Assembly (NCBI GenBank): GCA_022447925.1
Contig: JAKUTS010000008.1
Location: 1-64,000 of the forward strand
Length of the DNA: 64,000 nt
Direction: 5' to 3'
DNA from: SAR202 cluster bacterium
GTDB lineage: Bacteria > Chloroflexota > Dehalococcoidia > Lucifugimonadales > UBA2962
Position 1 is the stretch's first letter; each line of letters starts with the position of its first letter. Under the pieces are notes generated by a model, which saw nothing but the letters and a program-made list of their open reading frames with translations, was not told the origin of the DNA and made no database searches. The position numbers and the translations under genes were made by a program. Shown here piece by piece: positions 42,953-45,666 of the stretch.

Positions 42953-44209
42953 TCATTGTAGAGATTTAAGAGGATTTTTATTTATTATAAACAGTGTGGA
43001 TATGGCTATAAGTATTAAGGCCATAAAGCCTATTACCCACTGGCCACCTAGGTGTTCTGTAGCGAAACCAACCGGCAAGACCATTAAATTCACTATACCA
43101 AAAGTCATCATGTATACACTCATTATTCGACCACGATATTCAGGTTCGCTTAGTTTCATAATTAATCCCTGGATAGGTATTCTTCTGCCTGCATCTGTGA
43201 TTCCTAAAATTGCAATTAGTAATAATCCTATTGCATAATCTGGTATTAAGACGATTGCTAGCAGCGCTACCCCAGAGAGCCCGCTAATAATTAATAACAA
43301 TATTCCTCGATTACCATCTTTTTTAATAGCAAGTATCAACGAACCCAAGAACGCTCCAACTCCCATTAAAGTCATCATCAAGCCTAGCGCCGCTGGTCCT
43401 TTTTGATACACATCGACGACAAATACTGGTAGTACAAATCTGAAAGGCATAATCAGAGAGGCGGTTATTAATGACATGAGTATTACTATCTTTAGTGAGG
43501 GGAAGCTATTTATGTGTTTTAGGCCCACAATTATTTCTTGAACCACTGCAGGATGTGATTGTTTTGGAGGGGTTAATGATGGTAGTTTGCGACTTAAAGC
43601 AACAGATATTAAGCCTAGACAGGCAACTACAGCAAAAACCACCCAAGGTCCTGCTAAAGCATAGAGAGCTCCTCCAATTCCAGGAGCAGCGGCTGTCGTG
43701 ATGCTAAGAAGCGCTCCGTTTAGCGCCACGGCATTTTCTAGGTCAGCTTTTGGTACAAGATCAGGTATTGCAGCCTGTCGTGCTGTCAAAGAAAATGCCA
43801 TTACTAATCCAAACACTACTCCCATAACCAAAAGGTGTTGCCAAACTATAAAGTCAGTGTAAATAGAGACCGCAATTAGGAGAGCAATTGTTGCAGCCAT
43901 AATCTGTCCTATTTGAATGATTCCTCTTCTTCCAAATCTATCTGCAGCCACACCAGCAAATAAGGGCAATAGCAGCATCGGTACAGCTTGAGCTCCATAG
44001 ATTAAGCCTAAAACTGATGCTGAATCGCTTAAATCGTAAGCCAAATATCCCTGAGCAACAAAAGCCATCTGGAGTCCACTCATCATTGCTAACATACTGA
44101 ACCACATGTGCCTGAATTCGCTATGCTTAAAAGACCTAAGCATACCTAAATTACTCAACTTTATGCGGCGCTTTGGGTTGTTGTTGATTTGAGAAATGAT
44201 TTTGGACAC
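42953..44209 (-). CDS. Major facilitator superfamily transporter (MFS_3/enterobactin exporter-like)
   Basis: 12-TM-like hydrophobic profile; FAGVAADRFGRRGIIQIGQ between TM2 and TM3. Confidence 0.88.
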   Translation of the reverse strand: MSKIISQINNNPKRRIKLSNLGMLRSFKHSEFRHMWFSMLAMMSGLQMAFVAQGYLAYDLSDSASVLGLIYGAQAVPMLLLPLFAGVAADRFGRRGIIQIGQIMAATIALLIAVSIYTDFIVWQHLLVMGVVFGLVMAFSLTARQAAIPDLVPKADLENAVALNGALLSITTAAAPGIGGALYALAGPWVVFAVVACLGLISVALSRKLPSLTPPKQSHPAVVQEIIVGLKHINSFPSLKIVILMSLITASLIMPFRFVLPVFVVDVYQKGPAALGLMMTLMGVGAFLGSLILAIKKDGNRGILLLIISGLSGVALLAIVLIPDYAIGLLLIAILGITDAGRRIPIQGLIMKLSEPEYRGRIMSVYMMTFGIVNLMVLPVGFATEHLGGQWVIGFMALILIAISTLFIINKNPLKSLQ

Positions 44210-44443
44210 CCTACTCCATCCGATTTATAGAGTGGTTGCCATTGGTTGAGACAGGTAATTTATCTAATAGATTAAAACCATATGAGTATTTTTTTGTGTT
44301 TGGTTTCGACTTTAGAATGCATTCACTTGCCATATGCTTACTTTATGGCGAAATTATCGGTTACACAAGTGTGTCAAAGGTTAATATATATGTACGAGCA
44401 ACTATCGCACTTTCTAGTTTTTGATTTTTGGAATGTGGTTTAG

Positions 44444-44527
44444 GGGTCCTGGCCATGAGGTACACTCATTCACCTGTAAGTAAACAGGCGAAAGGTCCTC
44501 AAGGGTGTTCGGCCAGAACCCGTTTTT
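44444..44527 (+). ncRNA. Candidate structured RNA / leader with possible pseudoknot and terminator-like U-tract
   Basis: Outer helix GGGTCCTGGCC (44444-44454) / GGCCAGAACCC (44511-44521), 10 bp with one C-A mismatch; inner TGAGG (44456-44460)/CCTCA (44497-44501); ACACTC (44462-44467)/GGGTGT (44503-44508); hairpin CCTGT(44473-44477)/ACAGG(44484-44488); followed by TTTTT (44523-44527). Strand is inferred from the U-tract. Confidence 0.5.
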
Positions 44528-44586
44528 GTCCGAATTATTATGCTAATTCTAATCTGATTTCGTCTATTTGATGTTACCATAAATGT

Positions 44587-45666
44587 ATGAGTAATACGTT
44601 AGGTAAAATTTTTAGAATCACGACGTGGGGTGAGTCTCACGGAGAAGGTATTGGGGTTGTAATTGATGGATGTCCTGCCGGAATACCTTTATCTATTTCA
44701 GATATACAAACTGAATTGGATAGGCGTCGTCCAGGTCAAAGTCAAATAACAACACAAAGACGCGAGGCAGATAAACCATTAATTTTATCTGGTGTTTTTA
44801 ATGAGGTCACTTTAGGTACGCCAATAATGATAATGGTAAAAAACCAGGATGCTCGTGGTAAAGATTACCAAGAAACAGAGCAGACCTTTAGGCCTTCACA
44901 CGCAGATTACACATATGAAGCAAAATATGGGATAAGGGATTGGAAAGGTGGTGGACGCGCAAGCGCGAGAGAAACTGTGGGCAGGGTAGCAGCAGGGGCG
45001 ATAGCGCAGAAAATTCTATCGACTCACAATATAGAAATTGTGGGATATGTAAAGAAAGTTTGGAATATAGTTGCGGATGTTGATCCTGGTCATGTTACCA
45101 GGGAGGATGTTGAGATAAATGAGGTGAGGTGTCCAGACACAGCTATAGCAAAAACAATGATTGAAAGGATTAAGAAGGCACGCAAGGAAGGAGATTCATT
45201 GGGAGGGGTCGTTGAACTCGTTGCTCGGGGAGTCCCGCCTGGCCTTGGTGAGCCTGTATTCGATAAATTAGATGCAATGTTGGCAAGTGCTTTATTATCT
45301 TTGCCTGCTTGCAAGGGCTTTGAGATAGGATCTGGCTTCGCGGGTACATCCATGACAGGCTCTGAACATAATGATGCTTTTTATAATGACGGTGGCAGAA
45401 TTAGAACGCGCACGAATCACTCTGGAGGAGTTCAGGGTGGAATATCCAATGGTGAAAACATCGTGTTACGAGCGGCTTTCAAGCCCACTGCTACTATTGC
45501 AAAAGAACAGAGTACCGTAAATAAATTGGGTAAAGAGACTACTATCAAAGGTAGAGGTCGTCATGATCCGTGCGTTCTGCCGAGAGCAGTGCCAATGGTA
45601 GAATCAATGGTCGCTTTGACCCTCTGTGATCTTTTACTAAGACAATCGGTTAATCCGACTCCGTAA
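44587..45666 (+). CDS. aroC: Chorismate synthase
   Basis: [108 protein letters not shown]. Confidence 0.96.

Follow-up and report, generated by a model that had tools for sequence, protein, structure and literature searches.

Identity of the aroC-adjacent element

The window analyzed here, a stretch of 64,000 nucleotides from a genome that belongs to the SAR202-type Chloroflexota order, raises the question of what resides in a compact, self-complementary block in the gap between a minus-strand MFS gene on one side and the plus-strand aroC on the other. SAR202 bacteria are abundant in the dark ocean and remain largely uncultured. In a preliminary description, the block had been read on the plus strand as an H-type pseudoknot with a terminator-like tail, matched to none of several known RNA consensuses, which might be a stand-alone small RNA, an aroC leader or attenuator, or a leader of the MFS gene. 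The features underlying that description were recovered from the sequence at their places in the MFS/aroC gap, namely the outer arms GGGTCCTGGCC (44444-44454) and GGCCAGAACCC (44511-44521), which contain one C-A mismatch and are followed by GTTTTT, as well as the inner complementarities TGAGG/CCTCA, ACACTC/GGGTGT, and CCTGT-AAGTAA-ACAGG. Since the minimum free energy was -34.3 kcal/mol for the plus strand (z -3.6) and -43.9 kcal/mol for the minus strand (z -8.3), the folding of the element exceeds chance in both orientations.

A protein-coding origin was considered and rejected. The window genus has an open frame on the minus strand, but frames are broken across the family, the length of the element is not constant modulo 3, and no open reading frame is kept across the family. 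Scanning with the Rfam 15 covariance models yielded no match in the window at the gathering score, a single chance match outside the element at E ≤ 10, and, for 19 homologous loci, none with E ≤ 1. This agrees with the earlier statement that the element could not be matched to the RNA consensuses named there. The bacterial small SRP RNA was likewise dismissed as a candidate, as the RF00169 match of this genome lies elsewhere (C1:137063-137163, 70.4 bits). Within the library of papers searched, nothing was found on small RNAs of SAR202. Among structured RNAs of the Chloroflexota, the Chloroflexi-1 RNA (RF01698, PMC2864571) was also found computationally, as were other Rfam candidates; the present element matches neither RF01698 nor any other Rfam 15 model.

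Distribution within the order

The block is approximately 90% identical in three of four congeners, while conservation drops strongly in the DNA farther upstream; the fourth congener (G002, 79% complete) yielded neither the element nor any aroC match. A first covariance model was built from four sequences and picked up further members. Searching 250 genomes of the order with a 34-sequence model (R2) located the element in 55 of them, always as a single copy, and a 51-sequence minus-strand model (R3) added every one of the five family f18 genomes with a window-type aroC. In total, the RNA is thus found once each in 60 of the 250 genomes, representing 19 family-level groups. Covariance-model searches of the class and the phylum gave no convincing member outside the order. 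The R3 matches obtained there were weak (E 0.001 to 0.015), in most cases had no CCU/GAG core or no stem with good pairing, and were regarded as doubtful and left uncounted. Two early weak matches outside the genus (G053 and G009) were discarded as chance similarities in coding-like DNA, and the weak R1 matches L074, L075, and L080-L082 were excluded because the motif was absent.

A second patch conserved within the genus was observed upstream of the element at 44320-44380 (TTGNCAT..TG..TACTTTAA, CACAAG), perhaps representing the MFS promoter region.

Secondary structure and covariation

On the minus strand, the element folds into one long bulged hairpin, composed of the 11-bp helix P1, a one-sided GAACACC loop, the bulged helix P2, and the variable hairpin P3 (Table 1). 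In the alignment of 51 sequences, 93.5% of 1263 cells are paired, and 20 of the 25 base pairs show changes on both sides. The number of double-changed cells reached 200, compared to 61.5 in shuffles, and both the shuffled and the slid controls remained far lower. The same fold was recovered by an unguided RNAalifold prediction of the minus strand. Against a null generated by simulation on the tree of the aroC proteins, an approximation of our own rather than R-scape, four column pairs were obtained with E<0.05, all inside the fold, as were the top seven. Covarying column pairs include the closing pairs of P3, namely 33-64 (U-A in 27 and C-G in 22 sequences) and 35-62 (six standard pair types), and 28-72 of the nested helix P2 (G-C 26, A-U 16). 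By these comparisons, the element qualifies as a conserved structured RNA with covariation beyond phylogeny. The motifs AACA, CCU, and GAG-G are invariant in the alignment; in family f18, which lies outside of it, the remainder of the loop is altered, giving GAACAUUC.

Table 1. Features of the element and its surroundings in the window.
Feature	Position	Strand	Evidence
Conserved structured RNA core	44441..44522	-	R2 match 44441-44522, R3 match 44437-44522; 60 genomes; G-U versus A-C counts
P1 5' arm (GGGTTCTGGCC)	44511..44521	-	Forms 11 bp with 44444-44454, with 94.4% of cells paired (51 sequences) and both sides changed in 9 pairs
P1 3' arm (GGCCAGGACCC)	44444..44454	-	11 bp with 44511-44521
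Internal-loop segment GAACACC, P1/P2 junction	44504..44510	-	AACA invariant, remainder at least 90% conserved (51 sequences)
P2 5' arm, with CCU invariant in A6	44493..44502	-	Pairs with 44455-44466; columns 28-72, 25-78, and 23-80 covary
P2 3' arm, bulged, with GAG-G invariant in A6	44455..44466	-	Alignment
P3 hairpin, length variable	44469..44492	-	Closing pairs covary
Near-palindromic extended -10-like motif ATGTTACCAT	44571..44580	.	TGGTAACAT on - (for the RNA), TGTTACCAT on + (for aroC)
Predicted 5' region of the RNA, unstructured, beginning near 44564	44523..44564	-	Inferred from the -10-like motif
Predicted 3' end of the RNA after P1	44429..44443	-	U tract clear in many relatives, weak here (CTAAACC)
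aroC, chorismate synthase, constant neighbor	44587..45666	+	Pfam PF01264, E 6e-144
MFS transporter, variable neighbor	42953..44209	-	Pfam PF07690; other genes instead in relatives

The pseudoknot proposed previously did not hold. Its ACACTC/GGGTGT pairing is kept solely by one-sided A/G changes opposite U on the plus strand, which become A-C breaks on the minus strand; no double change was observed, about half of the pseudoknot pairs break on the minus strand, and the left arm ACACTC pairs within the nested, covarying helix P2.

Strand assignment

Three lines of evidence, namely G-U wobbles, folding energy, and 3' U tracts, favor the minus strand for the RNA and speak against the plus-strand orientation assumed at the outset. 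Read on the plus strand, many cells of P1 and P2 are A-C where the minus strand has G-U (71 versus 10). Read on the minus strand, 120 G-U cells stand against 19 A-C cells, and 14 of 15 informative families have more G-U than A-C. In 40 of 52 genomes, the minus strand is also the more stable one. Across the family, the minus-strand tail after P1 contains 4.06 T in eight positions compared to a background of 2.1, and the plus-side tail is enriched to a lesser extent (3.35 T in eight). In the window genus itself, the U tract of the minus strand is weak, and TTTTT is found on the plus side instead. The terminator-like TTTTT described earlier is real on the plus strand of this genus, but it is not a property of the family, where T is raised at that place, though less than at the other end.

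Promoter-like signals

Most of 52 genomes carry an extended -10-like motif between the element and aroC, usually 17-74 nt from the element. The motif stands out in both directions, with scores of 10.9 on the minus and 10.4 on the plus strand versus 8.9 in shuffled sequences, and a control from the left flank (8.6) is at background; in G232-G234, the motif is weak on the minus strand. According to work on bidirectional bacterial promoters (PMC10268837; Warman et al. 2021, cited therein), near-symmetric -10 sequences can start transcription on both strands in bacteria. The present locus shares with those promoters a near-symmetric -10-like sequence, predicted here from the sequence. The near-palindromic motif suits a bidirectional promoter; being symmetric, it is no proof of minus-strand transcription.

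In the window, the plus-strand copy TGTTACCAT ends just before the ATG of aroC (44572-44587), and similar spacing occurs in G044 and G005. This position immediately upstream of the start codon suggests that the aroC mRNA may be leaderless in the window.

Genomic context

Wherever it is visible, aroC is the right-hand neighbor, and it adjoins the RNA in 59 of 59 genomes with the window-type gene. The corresponding AroC proteins (61-100% identical to that of the window) occur in 59 of the 250 genomes, all of which bear the RNA. The linkage was never seen broken; G245 carries the RNA and has no aroC match. In 19 RNA-less genomes that were checked, AroC was only 37-43% identical to the window type. 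The order harbors two AroC types, one at least 61% identical (59 genomes) and one at 37-43% (the 19 checked RNA-less genomes).

The left neighbor varies. It is mostly an MFS gene, and elsewhere it is fhs, PhyH, a xanthine/uracil-type permease, an aminotransferase IV, an amidohydrolase, or a plus-strand gene, among them a polyketide-cyclase-like one. The plus-strand left neighbor in G044 ends 16 nt from the element, and those of G059 and G091 share its orientation. Genes also intervene on the right side. In G246 (L152:4257-5057), a minus-strand HpcH/HpaI aldolase gene identified by Pfam lies between the RNA and aroC, and in G241, a frame evidently related to it separates the two (family f34, genus g97). 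In G169, a plus-strand aldo/keto reductase gene is placed there. The form of the element is kept even where aroC is more than 1 kb away.

Judged by glycyl-tRNA synthetase, which is unlinked to this locus, the genomes scoring closest to the window are likewise mostly those with the RNA. Inheritance of the RNA looks mainly vertical, with f18, f11, and part of f37 as exceptions by this rough measure. An additional glycyl-tRNA synthetase with 61% identity to that of the window was noted at G000:C31:1217-2515; the assembly has a contamination estimate of 5.4%, and the contig is possibly foreign.

Weighing the explanations

Given the variable left neighbors and the intervening genes of G246, G241, and G169, the family as a whole fits neither an aroC leader on the plus strand nor a leader devoted to the left gene. 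We consider a stand-alone structured small RNA, transcribed leftward from the minus strand by a promoter that would be common to the RNA and aroC or overlap the aroC promoter, to be the probable identity of the element (roughly 0.7). This option, already listed in the preliminary description, gains from the independence from any single downstream gene, given that the left neighbor changes and that a minus-strand gene separates the RNA from aroC in G241 and G246. The constant linkage to aroC counts against it, as a purely trans-acting RNA would not require such linkage. An unlikely alternative is that the element acts in cis as a leader of the leftward gene, a riboswitch or attenuator in which P1 would be a ligand-stabilized terminator. 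Minus-strand orientation and U tract fit this idea, most genomes have a leftward gene, usually MFS, that begins 20-330 nt downstream, and the compact fold with its invariant loop resembles an aptamer. However, MFS, fhs, PhyH, permease, aminotransferase IV, and amidohydrolase genes have no common function, the left neighbors of G044, G059, and G091 point the other way, and a consistent class of same-orientation downstream genes was not found among the left neighbors, which disfavors the MFS leader suggested before.

A leader or attenuator of aroC on the plus strand would explain why aroC is the constant neighbor and why TTTTT follows the hairpin in the window genus. We nevertheless deem it very improbable in view of the A-C cells replacing G-U on that strand, the minus-strand gene intervening in G241 and G246, and the promoter-like motifs between element and aroC, which in the window end just before the ATG. 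Equally little weight is given to a DNA-level element of the aroC promoter region, such as a protein-binding inverted repeat or a bidirectional terminator. The constant aroC linkage, the nearby promoter, and the T enrichment on both sides would be in accordance with it, but strand-asymmetric wobbles are a hallmark of RNA, as are asymmetric bulges and loops that are conserved and accompanied by compensatory changes, and the element is unchanged in form where aroC is more than 1 kb off.

Proposed mode of action and comparison with known RNAs

Conservation, fold, strand preference, single-copy occurrence, and linkage to one aroC type are established by comparison, whereas we infer that the stand-alone RNA is transcribed, has the ends given here, and acts in trans. 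The predicted transcript would run from around 44564 to around 44435, starting with an unstructured 5' stretch followed by the single long bulged hairpin. P1, which is G+C-rich and in many relatives is followed by a U tract, would serve as the transcription terminator, too. Most likely, the exposed GAACACC(U) loop and the adjoining CCU/GAG-G core would serve for recognition, by binding a protein partner or by base pairing with targets that are AGGUGUU-like and resemble Shine-Dalgarno sequences; the altered loop GAACAUUC in f18 counts against one fixed antisense target. Divergent transcription would couple the level of the RNA to that of aroC.

GcvB, SgrS, and OxyS are stand-alone bacterial sRNAs that are divergent from an adjacent gene. 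The element resembles them in being intergenic and structured, with a hairpin at the predicted 3' end, a putative promoter of its own, and a divergent neighbor. It differs from them in that no relation in sequence or structure was found, its neighbor encodes a biosynthetic enzyme, and convincing members were found only in the SAR202-type order. With the compact pseudoknot riboswitches preQ1-II, SAM-II, and fluoride, the element shares a similar size and the a-b-a'-b' complementarity on its plus strand; however, its pseudoknot is not upheld on the favored strand, Rfam gives no match, and the regulated gene is inconsistent.

Implications

As to its kind, the element represents a novel structured small RNA family, not a novel type of system. 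This family is absent from Rfam, occurs with one type of aroC, and was not found where another is present. A more far-reaching reading, which we regard as speculative and rather unlikely, is that of a new RNA class whose invariant GAACACC/CCU/GAG-G core would be bound by a protein of its own or by a shikimate-pathway-related metabolite, and whose expression is tied to one chorismate synthase lineage via the shared bidirectional promoter. If true, an uncultured clade of ocean bacteria would control its aromatic biosynthesis through an RNA. The family itself provides a defined target for metatranscriptomics and poses the question of what keeps this RNA beside aroC.
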